From positions 1 to 64,000 of the forward strand of contig ML769496.1 of assembly GCA_009733575.1 (NCBI GenBank): a stretch of DNA of 64,000 nucleotides, read 5' to 3'. Under the pieces are notes generated by a model. The model was not told the DNA's origin. It saw nothing but the letters and a program-made list of their open reading frames with translations, and searched no databases. Within the stretch, counting starts at the first letter, position 1. Each line of letters opens with the position of its first letter. The stretch comes from Gymnopus androsaceus JB14. Lineage: Eukaryota > Basidiomycota > Agaricomycetes > Agaricales > Omphalotaceae. Shown here in pieces: positions 46,893-64,000 of the stretch. The position numbers and the translations under genes were made by a program.

Positions 46893-49800
46893 GCCTTCGT
46901 TCCTGGAATCAAAAGTCCTCGAATTCTGAACTACGAATCCGAGTGGGTCCTCGCGCGCATGAGTATACCTTCCAAATATGGCCTGCCACAACTCGCTTTG
47001 ACCGATGACATCATCATCAGAAGAGTCGGTTTTGCTTTGAACTGAGATGGATGAACGGCAAGTTGAAGTGAAAGGAGGAGCAAGGCAGGGGAACAGGGAC
47101 CGAAGCAACAAGATGGTTGGCAGATGTGTTTAAGCATAAGGTAATAGCTACTAGTAAGGCGAAAGATATAATCGGATATACTTAATCATAATGTAGAGAA
47201 GGAGGAAAGAAATGATTCGAAAGTGTCAGAGAAGGAGTGAAAAGGAGGTGGTAGCATACCGCAGCAAAAAAGATGACAGAACGAGGACGAAAGAAAAGGA
47301 AATGAATAAATGCAACGTGAATGAACCAATTGCTCTGAACGCGGACCCCTACGGGTATTCGTTTGTTTGGTAATATTACAGAGAGAGAGACCGGGGAGGA
47401 AAAAAAATGCAGCGAAATGTGCGAAGAAAAAAGGCAACGTATATGTAACGGTCTCGACTCTCGAATCTCGAAAAAAGACCGTCACCAGGAACAAAACGAA
47501 TATGTCACTCTGGGAGTCCCTCTCTGACAAAAAAGCGCTGCAAAAAGATACATATCTTCCATTGATGTTAGTATTGGCGTTGGCATTATGTCGCTGCTGC
47601 GAGAGGCGGAGTTGGCGTTGGCGTCTTTGGGGTGCGTTCACGCAGATTGCAACATTAGGTAGGGCCATTCCTATTGCCTGAGCACTCCGAGTTCCGCCGC
47701 GTGCGATGCATTTGCAGTGCGAGCTGTCTGTCAATGTGAAAAAGCCTAAGGGTGTCGTCGTCAGTAATTATGATGCAATGAAGGAATACACGTCGAGATT
47801 CGAGAGTAAAGGCCCTTTGATCCAAAGATCCTTCTCCTCCAAGCCCATCGCAGCACCGAATGCCTCATCCATTATATTTCTCGCTCCGTCCGGGGTATTT
47901 TGTTGGCTCCCTATACTATAGAAGTCCTTTGATAGATTTAGTCCACGAATCTAGGGAAGCCTAATGCCGTCCAATGCCATGTGTCCCATACGACAGCAAG
48001 AAACGTAGGACTGCTTGCGCGGAGTCGGTTTACGCCATGCTGTGACGAGTCGACAATGGCGGTGAATTCAACGAAGCCATGAGTAAGGAATGAAAACGGG
48101 CCCTGGTCGCGGCGATAAAATACCATTAGCCTCGTTAAACGGAGGGGGGTCAAATAATGTTTCTGTTAAACATGTTAAACACTACTTGTTTGCACAATCT
48201 ACATAGACTACTCTTTTATAGATTTTGTTAAACACGTTAAACATGTTGAACAGTAGTACCAATCTGTGCAGACCATGCATTCTTGTCCCTTGTTTAACAG
48301 CGTTAAACTGGCCATTAAACCATACTCTGCCTGAACGAAGCTCTCCATCCACAATGGCCAAACGGCCATTAAACCAGGTTGAACGACAGTTCAACAATCA
48401 CGTTCGAGCAACCCAGCTTTTTGTGTTTAATGCGTGTTCAACTGAACAGCGTTAAACCACACATTGCCCGAATAAATCTCCATCGCAACCCACCTCGAAA
48501 TGGCCGAACAATGGTTCAACAATTGCATTCAACCCACCCAACTTTCGCGTTTAATGTGTTTTGGAAAAAATTTTGAGATCCAGGATTCAGACGAGATTTG
48601 ATCAATGAAAAAACACCTAAGCTATAAACGGGTGAAGCTGAGCTGTAATCAGCGAGTGTAAAATCCATGAACAACAAGAGGACTCACTGCAAGCAACTCT
48701 CTAGCAAGGCCTCAAGTATGGCTACATGGTTCAAAACTCTCCCAATAATTCGACACAGCTTCAGATTCGAATGCCTGGCAGCAATAAAACTCTTCTGACA
48801 GACACTGTGGTGAGCGTGCTCATGACCTGACCAATGGTACCTAAGATTAAATCATGTCTGTGCTGGCCGAAATTAGTCGAAAAAAAACAAAAATAGAAGC
48901 AGTAGCAGCAAAGGTCAAGGTCAACTTAGGCTCGTTCTTCTACTAGTAAGAGATTGGTGAGTAAAAGTTGGATTGTCCAAGTTAAAGTAAGTGACATACC
49001 AATTAGTATAAGAGATCACTGTGTAGCATATTGAAGGTGAAAGCGAGAAGGTAAGGGAAAGGAAGAAGGAGGAATAAGGGAGCATTTTATATTTATATAG
49101 TGCAAGGACAAAAGAAGAATAAGGGTCACTCAAGGGCCACCCAAAAGACAATGAATGCCCTGCCCTCGGAGTGCCCCGAGAGGTCAACAATAAGGATGAT
49201 TAAAGCTGGATTTATTGAGGCCTTATTGTTCTACTTGTACTGGTATATATAGCATCGGATGATGGGTGGGTCGCAGACTCGCAATCCCCCCCACCCCTTA
49301 ATAGCTGCTCTTACTTGAACTTCAGTAAGTCCGCCAGTCGCTCGTGTTTGCATTAAGGCTCATTCTACTTATTCTAGTCTACAATGAGTATGAATGTGAA
49401 CCAGCCACATAAGTAAGTATCTCGCATTGTTTCCAGTGCATTTTGTTTTAGTTTGAACTTGTTAAACATGGTTGAACAAACGGTTATGATGTGCAATTGG
49501 CCTAGTTTTGGTATTCAACAGCTGGGTTAAGGACATTCAATGGCTGATTTAACATTGTTGAACAGCTGGCTTAGTGACAAGGCATATTAACTCATTAAAC
49601 GCGGTTTAATCAGCTTGTTATTTGCGCTCGGCCGAGTTTCAGTTGAATAGGGGTTCAATGACTAGGTTTAGTAACATCGTTGAATGACTGGTTTCAGTGA
49701 TAGGCAAAGAGTGCTTGAGTGTTTAACACTGTTAAACACATTATCATTGTGTGTTTAAATGGCGGTGTAGATTCAATGCTTTCATTTACTATACAGGTTC

Positions 49801-50719
49801 AACAACTGGTTTAACATTATTCAACGACTGGCTTGATGACAAGTGGATCGGGCACTCAAGATTGCGTTTAACGACGATTACTCGGTTGGGGATGATCAAC
49901 ATCTGGCTGGGAGCTCAAGATTGCGTTTAACAGCGTTAAACACATTAGGCGGCTGGGGCGAAAGCATGGTGTTTAACCCGCATTAAACCTTGTTAGACTG
50001 TAGTCTATTCTATTTCATTCATAATGTATGGGACTTTTACTTTGTTTAACACGTTTAACAGAAACATTAATTGACCCCCTCATGTTTAACAAGGCTTATC
50101 GGGTTACTGCGCGGCGCGAGGAGGAACAGCCTCTAAGAGTATCGAGTGAAACATCTATCATCTGATAGTAAGAGATAAATTGTGAATCTGAAGGGTAGAA
50201 AGCAACCAACATTCTATCGAATTAATGAATACCATTTCGGTTCTCTATCTGGGTCAGTGTCGAAGACTCAAAATGAACTTCTGCAACGCTTTTACCTGCA
50301 GCAGGACCGAGTCTTTCCATCGCTAACGCTTTGTCTGTGTCCTTGTTTCGCCGAGTGCCAGTTGGATTGGAGATATAAGAGATATAAACGGAATCTAGGG
50401 TTTCTCTGTAACTATGAAAGTCCCGTGCGGAAAATCAAACTGGGACGATCATACTGGAAGTGCAGAGGCAGAGAGAGCAATGTCATGACCGTTCGAGCAA
50501 TCGACGAGACTCGAGAGTAGTCTTAGGCTCCGCAAACAGGGCCTGATTCGTGACATAGCGCGTCGGAATACAGGCCGTCAAGTGACTTCAATGAGATTCT
50601 GAAGAAGCTAAACTGGGTTGAGCTGGAGTCTGAAGATGAAAGCGTCAAATTTCACGCGTTTGAATTGTTTGGTTTAGAATCTCTTGCACCGAGAGCGCTA
50701 AATCAGCGCTTCGTCCAAA
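46893..50719. repeat. Dispersed repeat, copy 1, split by a TIR element
   Basis: 46893-48114 and 50110-50719 align with 54568-56431 in the same orientation, with many substitutions and small indels. The match begins around TCGAATTCTGAA and ends around AAGCGCTTCGTCCAAA. The interruption is the 1995-bp element at 48115-50109. On the minus strand both copies keep some frames (separate finding). No family was recognised. Confidence 0.8.
48115..50109. mobile_element. Non-autonomous TIR DNA transposon, 1995 bp
   Basis: The ends are inverted repeats of about 65-70 bp: left TCGTTAAACGGAGGGGGGTC at 48132, right the complement of GACCCCCTCATGTTTAAC near 50074-50091. The element is flanked by a 7-bp direct repeat CGCGGCG (48108-48114 and 50110-50116), and the paralogous locus at 55763-55769 has a single GGCGGCG, the empty site. 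The terminal 400-650 bp on each side carry more than 20 copies of GTTTAAC/GTTAAAC/GTTGAAC words, often as palindromic pairs, like the subterminal transposase-binding repeats of plant and fungal DNA elements. The centre has a TATATATAG box (49243) and a tiny ATG exon at 49384 with a GTAAGT splice site (49413), but no transposase frame. The superfamily is not resolved. Confidence 0.85.
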
Positions 50720-51162: not shown

Positions 51163-54100
51163 ATGATCATCTCATCATTCTATCGATATAATCAAAGGCA
51201 TAAAATTGGTGAGGAGAAAAGATCCATTTTTCGAGCTACTTCATTCAAATTTTCGAATCTGAAACTGATGTTTGAGAGCAGGTACATCCGACACGAGACT
51301 ACCAGTTCAGATGTATTAAACCGCCTTTTCGCATCCGGTAAGTGTTTGCGCTCCCTTTCCATATCACCCCTCGGCTGCTTTATGATGAGCGTAGTGGCGT
51401 CCTGCTCTCGCAGGTTATACCGTGCATTACCAGCAGTTATACTTGGGGTATTATTCAATGTCCTCGATGCCGGTAAGGAACTTTATTCAATCCACGCCAT
51501 TAATTCTACGTCGCTTAATCCTATCCACTCTCAAGTCTCAGCCGGATTGCTTGTTTTTCCAACAGATGGATCAGACTCTTCCTTCCAACGTCTACAGCTC
51601 CAGGGAATTTCAATGTTCATCATGAGGTGCAAATTTCCCGAATTTTGTGTTCTCGCTCCGTTCTTATATTCCGCCTTAAAGCACAATGATATCTCAGATA
51701 ATCATTACATGCGGCGGTTCACAGTTTTCTGGGGCGTTGGGCACTATGTTTGTGGAAGTTCTTCCTTTCCTCCGAAGCATAGCCAGTAACATCCGCCACA
51801 ATCTTGGTGAAGGGAACCGGGCCTTGATACCAACGGTAATGGCTGCATATGCTCTTACTAGCATCCTTATCGGAGCAGTATTTGTGCTCATCGGTCTTCT
51901 AAACCTTGGATATTACGTATGGCCACCTCGTTTTACTACCTTCGACATAGATTAAAATCTCTCTTTACTCTGGTTTAAAACCTAGGTTGGCTATTTTCCT
52001 CAGACTGTCCTTACAGGTGCCGTTGGTGCTATTGGTGTCTCTTTATTCACTCTGGGCGTCGGCTTAACTCTTCCACCGTCAACAACCAATCTCACCCTCC
52101 ATTCCGCAAGCGTACTTCTATTTAACAAGAAACATCTTCCATTGATGGCAGCCTCCATAATACCAGCGTTAATCATCTCCATTTCCATCCGTTCTCGAAG
52201 TTGGGAACGGTTGACTCGCGGATTATCGAAAAATGATTACTACATCCCAGGATGTATGCTGCTTATTCCGATCATTTTCTGGATTGTAGTGGCTATTGAG
52301 CATACCTCTAGAGACTCACTTGTCAAAACTGGTTGGCTTTTTCAGATCGCGATTTCCCCCGAGTCACCAACAGACTCACTGAAAGATGCGGTAAACTCAT
52401 GGAACTACTGGATGGAGTTCGATTTCTCAGGAATAGAGTGGCACGCAATTAAAAACTCTAGCAAGGACATCTTGATATTAGTGCTCATTTCAATTTTAAA
52501 CTTGATGATTTACATTCCTTCCTTGGCTTTCAGCCTTGACATTCCGTATAATATGAGCCACGAGTTCTTAGGACAAGGCTTTTCAAACATTATTGCAGGG
52601 CTAACTGGAACCGTTCCTAACCTTCTTGTGAGTCTTTAAGTTGCGACTCAAGTTGTCTACAAGTAGTGTTTGATTTACACTTACAGGTGTACTCTTATTC
52701 ACTATTTTTCAGTCGGGCACAAGGTGGCCGCCTTGAAGCAGTCCTTGTCATTGTGTTCACGCTCGGAATTTTTTTAACTACGGACCTTCTTTTACCATAT
52801 GTTCCGACAATCCTCGCATCAGTCATGGTGCTTTTTTGTGGTACAGAACTCATCTTTGATGCTATATGGGGATGTGCAAAAACGTTGGTGCCACTCGAAT
52901 ACACTACCGTGATAGTGACTGTGGTAGCATGTACTTTCCTGGGATTTGCTGAAGGTCTCGGAGTGGGCATTGGAGCAGCCATAGTAATCTATCTTGTGCA
53001 TGGAGTTGTTGACTCGGTAAGTTTCTGCAGATAATTTCACCTGAACATTAGTTTGATATCATTTCTCAATAGCGTCCTAGAGCAATGCAGTTGGATGCAT
53101 CTTTCCAACCAAATCATATCAGACATGACCGGAATCCGGAAATGCTCAACAATTCAAGTTGTACCGCGCTCCCCAGTGCCCCAATACGGTTCCAATCAGC
53201 ACACTCTACAACAACGCTTGTGAATAGTAATGATCCACAGTGCTATGTGGACATTGAAAACGGCAGAAAACCGATTGACACAAGCATGGATGATATTCTG
53301 CTTAGAATTAACGCTCGTGTCATTGCTTTTAGTGGATATATCTGTATGTATTCTGGTGCTTCGGTCATAACTACTAATATTCAGCTAATATCTGTGCCCC
53401 CCGTAGTCTTTGCTATTATACCTTCACTCGAAAGTAAAATCCTCCGCACATCTAATACGCCTGGACATATAAAGTTCATCATTCTTGATCTTACAATGGT
53501 GTATCGACTCGAAACAGCCGCAGCAATGTCTCTAAACAGGGTAAGGAGAGATTTATTCACCACTCAGACTATTCTCGTCTTTGGTGGTTTGAACTCTGGA
53601 GTACAGGCAGATTTCGAGCGGGCTGGAGTGGAGCTTGCACTTAACTCTAGTCCCGTGGACTTGGGAGACAACTCGAAAGAGATACCTGCGTTCAGAACAT
53701 TCAGCGACGCCGTTTCTTGGTGTCAGGACCGGCATGAGTACGAAATTGCTATGGTGGAGTTGCTCAGAGCTCTCGGACGCATATCAAAATCTCCTCACAA
53801 TTCCTCTGGCAATGGCCAGGAGCGAAAATTGCTTTCAGACAACGATGTCTATGTCGCATTTTGTGCACAGTATGAATTCGATGAAGACATTGTTTTCGCT
53901 CCTATCACCAACGGGCAATTGCATAATCTTTCTGGAATGGATAGATTTCGTTCTTCCGGCGGATGCATCAGATACTATTCCCCCGGACAATTAATCACAC
54001 CTATATGTGGTGAGCTTCCTGCATATCCAAAGCCCTGGCATACAATTAACAAGTATACTGCTTTTTCCAAGGTGAACTTGGACGAATAGTCTTCATCGTC

Positions 54101-54567: not shown

Positions 54568-56431
54568 CGTTCCTTGAACCAACAGTTCTCGAATTCTGAA
54601 TTCCGAGTGAGTCCAAATTCGACCGATGACATCAGCCATTAGATCGGTTCAAAGCACTTTGGACCGACATGGACGGTAAGTCGAAGGATCTCCAACAATC
54701 ATTGCAGTTGCCAGGAGCAAGGTAGGAGAACAGGGGCCGCAAAAACAAGATAGTTGGCAATGTGTCTGAGCATAATGTAATATTTACTAGTAAGACGCAG
54801 ATATAATCGAATATAATCATAATGTAAAGGAAGAAAGAAATGATTCAAAAGCGTCGGAGAGCTCGTGAAAAGGAAGTGGAGGAGACTTGTAACGTACCGC
54901 GGCAAAAAAAGATAAACACAACCAGGACGAAAGATAAGGAAGTGAATGAATCAAACGTGAATGAACCAATGGCTCTGAGCGCAGACCCCTAGGGGGTATT
55001 CGCTTGCCTGGAAATAACAGAAAGAGAGAGAGAAAAAATGCAGTGAACTGTGCGAAAAAAGCCAACGTATATGTAGCGGTCTCGACTCTCAAATCTCGAA
55101 AAAAGACCATCACTAGGAACAAAACGAAGATGTCACTCTGGAGTCCCTCTCTGACAAAAGAACGCTGAAACAAGATGTATACATATCATCCTCCGTTGAT
55201 GCTAGTATTGGCGTTGGCATTATTGAAGGTGTCGCTGCTGCCAGAGGTGGAGTTGGTGTTGGCGTCTTTGGGGCGGATCGTAACTTGACATTAGGTAGGG
55301 CCATTCCTAATGCCTGAGCACCCCGAGTTCCGCCTTGTGCGATGTATTTACAGTGTGAGCCGTCTGTCAGTATGAAAAAGCCTGGGCCGCCATCGTCAGT
55401 AATTATGATGCAATGAAATGATTATAACGAATACGCGTCGAGATTCGAGAGTAAAGGTCCCACCTTCGATCCTATCGCAGCACCAAATACCTCATCCGTT
55501 ATATTTCTAGCTCCGTCCAGGGTATTTGTTGGCTCCCTAAATGGTAGAGATCCCTGGATAGATTTAGTCCGCAGATCTAGGGATGGGTCGAGGGAAGCCT
55601 AAATGCCGTCCGATGCCATGTGTCCCGTACGACAGCAAGAAACGAAGGACTGCTTGCGCGGAGTCGGTTTACGCCATGCTGTGACGAGTCGACAATGACG
55701 GTGAATTTAACGAAGCCATGAGAGGGGATTTGAGAATTTGAGGAATGAAAATGAACCCCGGTGGCGGCGCGAGGAGAAATAGCCTCTGAGGATATCGAGT
55801 GAAACATCTATTATCTAATAGTAAGGGATAAATTGATAACCTGAAGGGTAGGAAGCAACCAACGTTGAATATGGATCGAATTAATGATTACCATTTCGAT
55901 TCTTTATCTGCGTCAGTTTTGAGGTGCATTTCTGTAGTGCGACAGTGCCATTACGTCGCTAACGTCTTGTTTGTGTCCTTTTCTTTCGGAATCCTACTTG
56001 GTTCGGAGAAATAAATAGAATCTAGGTTTTCTTTGTGACTGTGATATCCCGCGCAGAATGTCGAACTGGGTGGATCATACGGCTGATCAAGAATTGATTT
56101 AGAGGTGCAGAGGAAGAGAGAGCCTACGATGAGACTCAGATAACATGATGGTTCCAAGTTAAGAGAGCATTCGACGAGACTCGAGAGTACTCCTAGGCTC
56201 CGCAAGTTGATAGTGACATAGCGCGTCGGAATGCAGGCTTTCAAGTGACTTTAATGAGATTCTGAAGAAGCTAAATTGGGTCGAGCTGGAGCCTGTCTGA
56301 AGATGAAAGCGTTATCCAAAACTAAAATTTCTTCACGCGTTTGAATTGTTTGGTTTCCAATCTCTTGCCAAACATTGAGCGCTAAATCGATCTGTGGTAG
56401 CGTTCTAGATCTCAAGCGCTTCGTCCAAACC
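54568..56431. repeat. Dispersed repeat, copy 2, uninterrupted
   Basis: This is the same repeat as 46893-50719 without the TIR element, and it gives the empty insertion site at 55763-55769. The two copies bracket the transporter gene in direct orientation, which would allow unequal exchange deleting or duplicating that gene. Confidence 0.8.
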
Positions 56432-58781: not shown

Positions 58782-60890
58782 ATGAATGCGGATCAACTCG
58801 TGCTGGGAATAATCCTAGTATGCAGGTAAGCCTCTTTCGATTACTTATAACTGTTTGCTTAATTCGTAATTTCCATAAAGCATGTTCTCAAATGCTCCCA
58901 TTTTGTCATCAATGGTGGTCAGTTTATCAATACAATGTGAGCTGATAACATGTTTCCCAGTCAAATTTTCTCATATTCCTTGTAGCTGGTGATGAGCAGA
59001 AAAAAATTATGGATTGGCTCAAAGCACCTAAATTGTTCCACAAACTACACTGCAGCTAGTGAATAAGAAGTAAAGAACACAGGGAAATGGATACTTGATC
59101 ATCCAGTTTACAAAGAGTGGAAACAAACTGGTGATATTTTGTGGATACAAGGCAAAGGTAAGTTTAGCGATATTCTTCAATGGGAATAGATTTCAGAATT
59201 CTGATAATGATGTCTTGCAGCTGGTTCTGGAAAGACTGTTCTGTCGTGAGCATACTCACAATGCAGAGTCTAGTTAGCTACTGAACATTTAATTTTACTC
59301 ATAGAACAACAATAATGGAAGATATGCACCAGGAGCACTGTTGCCTTGTATCATTACTTTGACTTCCGAGACAACACTGGATCTAAATGCGGATACTCTG
59401 GATTCTTATTGAATCTTTTACAACAAATGGGATCAAATGGAGATTGGCATTCATTCATGCTTTGCAAAATTTGTATAATAACTCCAAGCAAGGTCTTTTA
59501 TATGGTGAGACCAAGCAATACTGAGCTTGAAAAGACCTTGGACACAATTATCCAAGAGTTAAACATTGGTTGTATTGTATTGGATGCCTATGGATGAATG
59601 TGGTCCCAAGGACACAGTGCACATGTTCTCATTTGGCTTTCAGGCTTTCGTACAAAGCTCTGGATTGCTGTTACAAGTCGATATGTCTCAGAAGCCAGAG
59701 CCTTGTCAAACCTTAAGCTGAAGATCACACTGGATAGTGCTCAATCAGCAATGAGTCCACAGATATTGTTCTCTATTTAAATGAACAAATGCTAAATCAT
59801 GACTTTGGGGATTTTCAACAACAGATTGTTGAAACATTGATGAAACAAGCAGAGGACAGTAAGCATAATTCTGCTCATTTCCTTTATTTCTATGCTTATT
59901 TATACTCTTTAGATTCCGCTGGGTAGACTGTCAATTTAACTCATTGATACAATGTGGAACATCCAAAGCTATTAGAGAGACATTACAGAAGCTTCCACAT
60001 GATTTGGAGGAAACATATACAGAAGCTGTTACAAGAGCTAAAGATAGTGTTCCATAGTGAACAGGCACATCTACTTCTTCTGTGGCTCACCTATGCTTTT
60101 GAATCACTGAACCGAGAGCAGGTTCAAGACATTCTAGCAATAGACCTTAATAATCAACAAGTGGATAAAAGATTCCTGCTTTAGACTGCATAGCATTATT
60201 GATTCAAATCTAGTTGCTATTGATGTTCAATGGGGTTGTACAACTAGCCCATAGTTCTGTCAAGGAATTTTTGAATTACACACACACTGTCTACTCATGC
60301 ACCTGGACTGTTTGAGATCAATGAAACACTGGCCCATGACAAAATAGCTCAAGCATGCATTATCTATCTTCTCAATTTGAAAAATGAAGAACTGGACTTG
60401 GTGGCATTCTCATTAGTGCAGATATGCTGCTGATTATTGGCCATGCCATGCTAAGTTTATTGAAGAGCTTGGAATAGAAAGTCCTCTCCACTATTTGACA
60501 AAACTCATTCTGGAAGATGGGAGCATTCAGTTCCAGAAATGGCAAAGAGTGCATGTACATATATATTAACGAGTGTTCTCCTAAAGCCCGTCTACTATGC
60601 AGTCCGTGAAGGTCTAGTGAGAAGTGTTCAAGAGTTGATTTCATGTGACTTTGATCAATTACAAAGTAGATGATGGTATGGTGTGCATTAATTGGAGAGG
60701 CACTACAACGTGGGCATGACAAAATTATTAAGCTTTTATTGGATCATGGGAGGGATAGGATTGGAAATGCTTTACAAACAGCAGCATTGAGGGCAGGAAG
60801 TATTGTTAACTGTCTTGTTGAAATGGCGCAAGATGTTAATGCCAAAGGTGGGAAGGTATGAAATGTTTTACAAGGCAGCAAGCACATTTG
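58782..60890 (+). pseudogene. Broken NACHT (STAND NTPase) part of a NACHT-ankyrin gene
   Basis: The order of motifs is that of agaricomycete NACHT-ankyrin proteins: MDWLKAP, then TGKWILDHPVYKEW, WIQGK|AGSGKTVLS (Walker A, split by an intron), YHYFDFRD, LEKTLDTIIQEL, GCIVLDA..MDECG (Walker B), TKLWIAVTSR (sensor-like), FRWVDCQ, LQKLPHDLEETYTEA, and LLLLWLTYAFE. The frame is broken many times: an extra base after MDWLKAP, a TAA at 59064-59066, an extra T inside LDA-MDECG (near 59592), a stop near 60182 and more up to 60700. Intact homologues act as signal-triggered NTPases in fungal self/non-self recognition and cell death. Here the NTPase cannot be made as one protein. Confidence 0.8.
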
Positions 60891-63560
60891 GAGTATGAAG
60901 ACACTGTCAAACTTCTTCTGGAGAATGGTGCAGATGTTGATGCACAGGGTGGCAGATATGGAAATACTTTACAAGCAGCAATAGCTCAAGACAATGAAGA
61001 CATTGTCAAACTTCTTGTTGAGAATGGTGCAGATGCCAATGTAAAGGGTGGGGAATATGGAAATGCTTTACAGGCAGCAGCATTTGGGGAAATGAAGAGA
61101 ATTGTCAAATTCTTCATGAGAAGGGTGCCAAAGTTAATGCACAGGGTGCAGATATGAAAATGCTTTACAGGCAGCAGCATGTTCAGAAAATAAAGACATT
61201 CAAGTTGTCAAACTTCTTCTTGAGAATGGTGGAGATGTTAATGCACAGGGTGGGAAATATGGAAATGCTTTACAGGCAGCAGCAGCACATCGGGGAAAAG
61301 AAGACATTGTCAAATTTCTTCTTGAGAATTGTGCAGATATTAATGCACAGGGTGGGGAATATGGAAGCGCTTTACAGGCAGTAGCAGCATGTTGGGGAAA
61401 TGAACACATTGTCACACTTCTTCTTGAGAATGGTGCAGATGTTAATGCACAGGGTGGGGAATATGGAAATGCTTTACAGGCAGCAGCATTTTCAAACAAT
61501 AAAGACACCGTCAAACTTCTTCTTGAGAATGGTGCAGATGTTAATGCACAGGGTGGGGAATATGGAAATGCTTTACAGGCAGCAGCAACATATTGGGGAA
61601 AGGAACACATTATCAAACTTCTTCTTGAGAATGGTGCAGCTATTAATGCACAGGGTGGGCAATATGGAAATGCTTTACAGGCAGCAGCATTTTCAGGAAA
61701 TAAAGACACTGTCAAACTTCTTCTTGAGAATGGTGCAGATGTTAATGCACAGGGTGGGCAATATGAAAATGCTTTACAAGCAGCAGCATTTTCAGGAAAG
61801 GAACACATTGTCAAACTTCTTCTTGAGAGTGGTGCAGATATTAATGCACAGGGTGGGGAATATGGAAATGTTTTACAGGTAGCAGCATTTTCAGGAAAGG
61901 AACACATTGTCAAACTTCTTCTTGAGAATGGTGCAGATGTTAATGCGCAGGGTGGGAAATATGGAAATGCTTTACAAGCAGCAGCATTTTCGGGAAATGA
62001 GGTCATTGTCCAACTTCTTCTTAAGAATGATGCAGATGCTAATGCTCAGGGAGGGAAATATGGATATGCTTTACAGGCAGTAGCAGCATCATGTTGGGAG
62101 AATGAAGACATTATCAAACTTCTTCTTGAGAGTGGTGCAGATGTTAATGCACAGGGTGGGGAATATGGAACTGTGTTACAGGTAGCAGCACACTCAGGAA
62201 ATGAAGACATTGTCAAACTTCTTCTTGATAATGGTGCAGATGTTAATGCGCAGGGTGGGGAATATGGAAATGCTTTACAGGCAGCAGCAGCATATTGGGG
62301 AAAGGAACACATTATCAAACTTCTTCTTGAGAATGGTGCAGATATTAATGCACAGGGTGGCAGATATGGAAATGCTTTACAAGCAGCAGCATTTTCAGGA
62401 AAGGAACACATTGTCAAACTTCTTCTTGAGAGTGGTGCAGATATTAATGCACAGGGTGGGGAATATGGAAATGTTTTACAGGTAGCAGCATTTTCAGGAA
62501 AGGAACACATTGTCAAACTTCTTCTTGAGAATGGTGCAGATGTTAATGCGCAGGGTGGGAAATATGGAAATGCTTTACAAGCAGCAGCATTTTCGGGAAA
62601 TGAGGTCATTGTCCAACTTCTTCTTAAGAATGGTGCAGATGCTAATGCTCAGGGAGGGAAATATGGATATGCTTTACAGGCAGTAGCAGCATCATGTTGG
62701 GAGAATGAAGACATTATCAAACTTCTTCTTGAGAGTGGTGCAGATGTTAATGCACAGGGTGGGCAATATGGAAATGCTTTACAGGCAGCAGCACACTCAG
62801 GAAATGAAGACATTGTCGAACTTCTTCTTGATAATGGTGCAGATGTTAATGCGCAGGGTGGGAAATATGGAAATGCTTTACAGGCAGCAGCAACATATTG
62901 GGAAAAGGAACACATTATTAAACTTCTTCTTGAGAATGGTGCAGATATTAATGCACAGGGTGGCAGATATGGAAATGCTTTACAGGCAGCAGCATTTTCA
63001 GGAAAGGAACACATTGTCAAACTTCTTCTTGAGAATGGTGCAGATGTTAATGCACAGGGTGGGGAATATGGAAATGCTTTACAGGCAGCAACATTTTCAG
63101 AAAATAAAGACATTGTCAAACTTCTTCTTGAGAATGGTGCAGATGTTAATGCACAGGGTGGGGAATATGGAAATGCTTTACAAGCAGCAGCAACATATTG
63201 GGGAAAGGAACACATTATCAAACTTCTTCTTGAGAATGGTGCAGCTATTAATGCACAGGGTGGGCAATATGGAAATGCTTTACAGGCAGCAGCATTTTTA
63301 GGAAATAAAGACACTGTCAAACTTCTTCTTGAGAATGGTGCAGATATTAATGCACAGGGTGGGAAATACGGAAATGCTTTACAGGCAGCAGCATTTTCAG
63401 AAAATAAAGACACTGTCCAACTGCTTCTTGAGAATGGTGCAGATATTAATGCACAGGGTGGCAGATATGGAAATGCTTTACAGGCAGCAGCATTTTCAGG
63501 AAAGGAACACATTGTCGAACTTCTTCTAGAGAATGGTGCAGATGTCAATGCAACTCAGGA
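60890..63560 (+). repeat. Ankyrin-coding tandem array, about 26 units of 99-105 bp
   Basis: Each unit encodes one ankyrin repeat with the core HIVKLLLENGADVNAQGG and the link YGNALQAAA. Units are nearly identical at the DNA level, synonymous sites included. Longer blocks recur with a 603-bp period (about 61770-62430 matches 62373-63030), so the array grew in multi-unit steps. Confidence 0.9.
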
Positions 63561-63837
63561 AAATCACAAAAAGATTGTGAAAATCCTATTAAAACATGGT
63601 GCTGAAATGACCTCACATAATTCTAAATCTCTAGCAGCCTTAGGAGTCTCTTATGGATCAATTGAGACCACTCCTGTTGATGATACAGTAGGAGCATCCA
63701 TGAAGCGCAGTCTCAGTTTAGTTGAGTCATCCGGGATTGATGGTTTGGAGCAGTCCATGGAGGATACACTGATGGATCAACCACATGCTGAAGATGAATT
63801 ATCCCTTCACCCCTCCAAGAAACAGAAACTCATCTGA
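61147..63837 (+). CDS. Ankyrin-array open frame (C-terminal part of the NACHT-ankyrin gene)
   Basis: From about 61147 to the stop at 63837 one frame is open for roughly 895 codons; the part from 62173 (a GTG codon) alone is 554 codons. It encodes over 20 uniform 33-35-residue ankyrin repeats. A degenerate repeat follows (HKKIVKILLKHGAEMTSHNS), then an acidic tail ending HPSKKQKLI, a possible nuclear signal. There is no ATG at the open end: a one-base loss near 61148 shifts it from the upstream repeats (60858-61157), and a second set of breaks separates those from the NACHT part. Either it is expressed as an ankyrin-only protein from an internal start, or it is a remnant kept open by repeat homogenisation. 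Confidence 0.65.
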   Translation, partial: CRYENALQAAACSENKDIQVVKLLLENGGDVNAQGGKYGNALQAAAAHRGKEDIVKFLLENCADINAQGGEYGSALQAVAACWGNEHIVTLLLENGADVNAQGGEYGNALQAAAFSNNKDTVKLLLENGADVNAQGGEYGNALQAAATYWGKEHIIKLLLENGAAINAQGGQYGNALQAAAFSGNKDTVKLLLENGADVNAQGGQYENALQAAAFSGKEHIVKLLLESGADINAQGGEYGNVLQVAAFSGKEHIVKLLLENGADVNAQGGKYGNALQAAAFSGNEVIVQLLLKNDADANAQGGKYGYALQAVAASCWENEDIIKLLLESGADVNAQGGEYGTVLQVAAHSGNEDIVKLLLDNGADVNAQGGEYGNALQAAAAYWGKEHIIKLLLENGADINAQGGRYGNALQAAAFSGKEHIVKLLLESGADINAQGGEYGNVLQVAAFSGKEHIVKLLLENGADVNAQGGKYGNALQAAAFSGNEVIVQLLLKNGADANAQGGKYGYALQAVAASCWENEDIIKLLLESGADVNAQGGQYGNALQAAAHSGNEDIVELLLDNGADVNAQGGKYGNALQAAATYWEKEHIIKLLLENGADINAQGGRYGNALQAAAFSGKEHIVKLLLENGADVNAQGGEYGNALQAATFSENKDIVKLLLENGADVNAQGGEYGNALQAAATYWGKEHIIKLLLENGAAINAQGGQYGNALQAAAFLGNKDTVKLLLENGADINAQGGKYGNALQAAAFSENKDTVQLLLENGADINAQGGRYGNALQAAAFSGKEHIVELLLENGADVNATQENHKKIVKILLKHGAEMTSHNSKSLAALGVSYGSIETTPVDDTVGASMKRSLSLVESSGIDGLEQSMEDTLMDQPHAEDELSLHPSKKQKLI

Positions 63838-64000
63838 TATTTGGTACGTATTTCATTTCAATTGTGCATGAAAGTTATACTTACTATTTTGCATTTAGAT
63901 CACCTTTAAGTATTTCAAAAATCTTTATCTATTTCAATATTTTCTTCAAAGGACATATGTATTTACAGTTTTTTCTTGTACCTTGTTCAAGTTCCCAAGA
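63838..64000 (+). other. 3' flank of the ankyrin frame
   Basis: AT-rich sequence after the stop, probably the 3' UTR. No further gene begins before the window ends. Confidence 0.4.

Follow-up and report, generated by a model that had tools for sequence, protein, structure and literature searches.

The window analysed here is a stretch of 64,000 nucleotides from Gymnopus androsaceus JB14 (Omphalotaceae, Marasmiineae; GCA_009733575.1, contig ML769496.1, positions 1 to 64,000). It holds a short insertion with inverted ends, flanked by a 7-bp target-site duplication and filled near both ends with copies of the word GTTNAAC. Its features are the following:

48115..50109, + strand: element of 1,995 bp, very probably a non-autonomous one of KDZ type, with ends common to 22 other delimited copies and a flanking 7-bp duplication
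48108..48114: left target-site duplication CGCGGCG, a perfect 7-bp match to the right one
48115..48181, + strand: left end, consisting of the tip ATAAAATACC and then the inverted repeat, in which end positions 20, 51 and 60 carry words
48134..48520, + strand: left subterminal array of 13 GTTNAAC words
48849..49795: inner part, in which neither a long open frame nor extended similarity to the long coding copies was found
49461..50090, - strand: right subterminal array of 14 GTTNAAC words
50043..50109, - strand: right end, consisting of the tip CAGTAACCCG (read inwards) and then the inverted repeat, in which end positions 20, 51 and 60 carry words
50110..50116: right target-site duplication CGCGGCG, a perfect 7-bp match to the left one
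55763..55769: target site of the paralogue, uninterrupted and reading GGCGGCG, within the paralogous block 54753-56388

These limits, and the perfect duplication on either side of them, are exactly those of the original prediction. Read inwards, the two ends begin ATAAAATACCATTAGCC... and CAGTAACCCGATAAGCC..., and their columns 11-67 (about 57 bp) align with each other at 86%; the length of 65-70 bp first given for the inverted ends is valid only if the imperfect tip is counted, because the outer 10 bases match poorly. With the element removed, the joined flanks align with 54753-56388 at 77% over 1,717 columns and with no break at 55763-55769, so that the uninterrupted host copy proposed for that place is borne out as an alignment, its word GGCGGCG being one substitution away from the duplicated CGCGGCG and not identical to it letter for letter. 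The block is a paralogue of the insertion locus, not the other allele. Inside the element no long open frame was found (the longest, measured from stop to stop, is 92 aa), in agreement with the predicted lack of a transposase. As side observations on the window, the stretch 51986-53843, located after the insertion and before the paralogous block, carries fragments of a sulfate permease gene (38.2 bits) and a STAS-like segment that falls just short of the cut-off, and in 59001-64000 the G+C content goes down to 37-42% and the GC skew up to 0.28.

The element is one of many in its genome (83.3 Mb in 934 contigs). A DNA search with the element gave at least 78 matching pieces, with 40 of 69 candidates scored, including near-full copies on C19, C307 and C37. 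Genome-wide, patterns made for the ends (up to 3 mismatches) matched 25 times on the left and 37 times on the right, and the reversed control patterns matched 0 times each. Twenty-three copies could be delimited at both ends, among them one on C107 and two on C37; 4 of the 25 left-end and 14 of the 37 right-end matches are unpaired and stand outside this set. An exact 7-bp duplication flanks 16 of the 23 copies, and three others (C307, C324 and C174) have one with a single mismatch. The C237 copy has an exact 8-bp duplication and the C60 copy an 8-bp fit with two mismatches, while in two of the 23, the C211 copy and the first C37 copy, a duplication is absent. As a control, left flanks were paired with right flanks of other copies (21 copies), and none of the 420 pairings gave a 7-bp match; in a further test the second C37 copy, read at its right flank, proved to have the exact duplication GCAGAGC. 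The genome search with the ends that had been suggested as a check has thus returned 23 delimited copies, mostly with 7-bp duplications, and long KDZ-coding copies among them; the contrary outcome, of ends found only at this locus or of copies without duplications, was looked for and is not what the genome holds. Other transposons are nested in members of the family: one of about 7 kb, different in its ends (TAGGGTT...) and with the 8-bp duplication TTTAACAC, sits inside a GTTTAAC word of the 9.0-kb copy at C37:12000-21900 (its five long frames gave no Pfam family above cut-off), and a Copia retrotransposon lies in the C237 copy (L024:3942-9532).

The words are the most conspicuous feature of the ends. 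We counted 27 GTTNAAC words in the 1,995 bp, in line with the more than 20 GTTTAAC-type words reported at the outset, against a mean of 0.92 and a maximum of 5 in 1,000 dinucleotide shuffles; the rest of the window (62,006 bp) has 15. For their spacing we used 14 of the 18 element sequences, which provide 279 words in 28 ends, and excluded the near copies C19, C307, C37 and C60. Intervals of 9-12 bp make up 98 of the 251 between neighbours (35, 35, 24 and 4, respectively), compared with 19.1 expected by random placement, and inward-reading GTTAAAC provides 82 of the 140 left-end words and 92 of the 139 right-end words. A word stands at end position 20 in 10 of 14 left and 14 of 14 right ends, at position 51 in 13 and 11, and at position 60 in 6 and 12. 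Many of the pairs had been described as head-to-head; opposed pairs are indeed present, and so are pairs in the same direction. Among six copies (the window copy and five others), scored beyond base 75 only, the words are 86% identical at the left end versus 73% for their surroundings (permutation p 0.0096), and 88% versus 60% at the right end (permutation p 0.0012). Judged by their spacing, the word pairs may resemble sites placed about one helical turn apart for a protein that binds cooperatively.

The words could instead serve another role, as promoter, replication elements or sites for host proteins that are kept because they are useful to the element, and that they reach several hundred bases in from the ends would suit such a role. 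We think this unlikely, since the words point inwards at both ends, recur at the same three end positions, and occur in copies without long genes. Within the openly available main texts that made up our literature search, we found no paper treating subterminal repeats together with a KDZ transposase or Zisupton. The tips add a further regularity: the outermost four bases are ATAA on the left and CAGT on the right in all 23 delimited copies, a constancy that is somewhat biased because some of the copies came from search patterns containing the tips (3 of the 14 unpaired right ends begin otherwise, with GAGT, AAGT and CAGG). With ATAA at one tip and CAGT at the other, the two ends are therefore not equivalent at the cleavage point.

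Which protein might act on these ends is indicated by the long members of the family. Copies of 16,661 bp on C104 (duplication GGAGTTT), 15,380 bp on C118 (GCGCTGC; part of the sequence is N) and 16,054 bp on C107 (TGATAGC) were fully delimited, and a copy on C146 measures 14,001 bp between its ends (TCCATTC). The ends on C107 were sought, as a test, around a set of matches to the KDZ domain and to the genes B and C described below, and both were found, the right one as a match to the end pattern and the left one about 1.2 kb farther out than predicted. The reading covered the two ends plus 3 kb of the C107 copy and the two ends of the C146 copy, the remainder of both resting on protein matches. 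The C104 and C118 copies align in two main blocks, of 3.6 kb (82%) and 4.7 kb (77%), and in several shorter ones.

The KDZ domain (PF18758, cut-off 26.6) scores 77.1 bits in the C211 copy and 78.3 bits in the C104 copy, and it is matched inside the C118 and C107 copies as well, so that it is found in three fully delimited copies of 15.4-16.7 kb (C104, C118 and C107) with 70-86% protein identity to the C104 exon; in C146 the transposase match covers only the stretch after the domain. CxC2 (PF18803, cut-off 27) reaches 87.1 bits in the C211 copy, and its exon is also present in the C104 copy and, with 2 stops, in that of C118. Both domains are thus encoded by the long copies, and KDZ had been among the groups mentioned in the original prediction; the accompanying idea that the group might still be nameless in fungi is not supported, as two published accounts already describe the KDZ superfamily, under that name, from fungi (PMC12730594; PMC12810828). 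Of the features that characterise this superfamily, the long copies have a cysteine-cluster domain before the transposase, and the family has duplications of about 7-8 bp (exact 7 bp in 16 of 23 copies, exact 8 bp in one). In a Pfam scan of 34 open-frame pieces, 33 in long copies and one in a flank, only KDZ, CxC2, a T5orf172 piece and Copia domains came out above cut-off. The T5orf172 frame (L023:5339-5863), which we take to be GIY-YIG-like, scores 20.4 bits against a cut-off of 20 and lies in a part of the C104 copy that is absent from C211 and C118.

We estimated dN/dS with our own Nei-Gojobori script, mainly on one pair of copies (C104 and C118, dS 0.38-0.97). Between these two the KDZ core gives 0.08, three further transposase pieces 0.15-0.35 and CxC2 0.21 (with the 2 stops in the C118 stretch), the other frames of the long copies ranging over 0.23-1.08. 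Relatives of the transposase comprise 28 proteins from Gymnopus, Lentinula, Rhodocollybia, Collybiopsis, Marasmius, Mycena, Ephemerocybe and Armillaria, several of them being proteins of Gymnopus androsaceus JB14 itself.

We assign the family to KDZ because three copies of 15.4-16.7 kb with the same ends and with duplications hold PF18758, and we are confident that 48115-50109 is a non-autonomous DNA transposon of this superfamily, which would be moved in trans by the KDZ protein of a long copy. A non-autonomous member of a multi-copy family with an active partner had been proposed, and long transposase-coding relatives do exist in the same genome; an active partner would fit the conservation of coding exons between the long copies. 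Several findings count against this reading: the transposase exons are split, with stops within the matched stretches of C118 and others; the inner part of the short element, about 950 bp, is not just a leftover of the coding copies examined; over its outer left part, identity with the long coding copies is 76-79%; and 2 of the 23 copies have no duplication. A further copy of 12.4 kb, on C455, has the family ends and a duplication and, with its ends alone read, no listed KDZ, B or C match.

It might be argued that the short elements are dead relics that nothing moves any more, and the stops in the long copies, together with the 2 of 23 delimited copies from which duplications are absent, speak for this. 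We hold it to be improbable, because the window copy and the C19 copy, which occupy different sites with an exact duplication each, show 16 differences in 1,995 aligned bases (0.8%; 14 are transitions) plus 2 indels; with so few differences, movement would be recent on the scale of the family (the window copy and that on C307 show 67 differences in 1,985 aligned bases). Subterminal words are also common in hAT elements. That another cut-and-paste group, such as a hAT with 7-bp duplications, moves the family and carries the KDZ genes as captured passengers has a published parallel in the 7-bp duplications of a fungal hAT7 lineage, as described in PMC12730594, but we regard it as very improbable, given that no hAT or other DNA-transposase domain was found by Pfam in the 33 open-frame pieces of the C104, C118, C211 and C237 copies, and that the KDZ domain is present in all three of the fully delimited coding copies, C104, C118 and C107, with a dN/dS of 0.08 between the first two.

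Two more genes, B (on the opposite strand) and C, recur in the long copies. We searched with a single exon of the transposase and a single piece each of B and C; all three occur together at 7 of the 11 loci having a transposase match of at least 46% identity (C118, C146, C107, C104 at 157-174 kb, C104 at 125-132 kb, C285 and C98); transposase and C only are present at C762 and C784, and transposase only at C211 and at C104 near 26 kb. Matches to B and C also turn up where KDZ is not matched, C263 and C333 being examples. Between ends with 7-bp duplications, the KDZ domain, B and C stand together in the C104, C118 and C107 copies, and B and C accompany the post-domain stretch of the transposase in that of C146. 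Four B pieces give dN/dS values of 0.19-0.45 and three C pieces 0.24-0.37 (C104 versus C118), and as these are well below 1, both proteins would have remained functional within the transposon over a large part of its past. B represents a protein family of about 690 aa with no Pfam match (L050:3557-5808). It has at least 19 relatives among the 7,997 candidates sharing most words that were scored, and the 18 with a source name, from Gymnopus, Lentinula, Rhodocollybia, Dendrothele, Stygiomarasmius, Collybiopsis and Marasmius, are all called "hypothetical protein". In Collybiopsis luxurians a KDZ protein and a B protein both come from contigs of 336,946 bases, which suggests that the pairing of KDZ with B is older than the genus. 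The search with C matched 4 proteins, 3 of them from Gymnopus androsaceus, and a frame near the right end of the C104 copy, taken as part of C, has a weak AT-hook match (13.1 bits, below the cut-off of 17.4). In the published passages that were consulted, no account of this KDZ family or of genes B and C was seen.

How might transposition by KDZ proceed in this family? A KDZ protein made from a long copy would bind the paired GTTAAAC words in the ends, bring the two ends together and excise the element, which would then be joined at a 7-bp staggered break, short copies being moved in trans; proteins B and C may assist, for example by helping to bind the ends or to express the transposase. Going further, and only tentatively, the family may represent a lineage of KDZ elements in the Marasmiineae that needs three proteins (the CxC2-KDZ transposase, B and C), with unequal four-base tips and helically phased GTTAAAC pairs. 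If this were true, B or C would be new transposition factors rather than cargo.

KDZ elements are called understudied in a passage of one fungal study (PMC8290104), and they are abundant in mushrooms, with no fewer than 161 matches to the domain in this one genome (150 of 335 candidates scored). The present family is a clean set of 23 delimited copies, in which a 7-bp duplication goes with inverted repeats and a regularly spaced candidate binding word, and in which two conserved uncharacterised proteins travel with the transposase. The genes B and C are the part most worth following, and a 2-kb substrate makes it possible to test directly which protein reads the ends.

Several published KDZ systems may be compared with this family. 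Zisupton and Dileera are described with 8-bp duplications (PMC12730594), unlike the family here, where 8 bp is exact in 1 of 23 copies and occurs with two mismatches in another. Kyakuja of Laccaria bicolor (Kojima 2025) is described in the same source as having 7-bp duplications, CA..TG termini, no inverted repeats and a TET/JBP gene (PMC12730594). The present family resembles it in the transposase superfamily, in belonging to the Agaricomycetes, in the 7-bp duplications and in a right end that closes with ...TG-3' in 23 of 23 copies; it differs from Kyakuja as so described in its clear inverted repeats, in a left tip of ATA and not CA (23 of 23), and in that the genome has a single TET/JBP match, below the family cut-off. 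KDZ1, KDZ2 and KDZ3 of Cryptococcus neoformans, which have been demonstrated to be mobile, are given as 9-11 kb long with inverted repeats of 139-241 bp, CxC1 and duplications of 8 bp, or 4-8 bp for KDZ2 and KDZ3 (PMC12810828). They share with our family the long KDZ elements, the inverted repeats and the combination of KDZ with a cysteine-cluster domain, whereas here the cluster is CxC2 and not CxC1, the duplications are of 7 bp and the inverted ends of about 57 bp. In Marasmius oreades, another fungus of the Marasmius group, KDZ elements and short non-autonomous relatives have been classified by their ends and duplications (PMC8290104), and our family, compared by that description, is like them in its inverted repeats and short non-autonomous relatives. 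The giant KDZ elements reported from the brown alga Ectocarpus exceed 10 kb, carry extra genes and have been proposed to move in trans (PMC12477816); our family shares these traits, movement in trans being proposed here too. The family combines features of published KDZ groups, agreeing with Kyakuja as described in some of them and departing from it in others: it is a new family of the known KDZ superfamily, in which the paired words at the ends are unusually clear.
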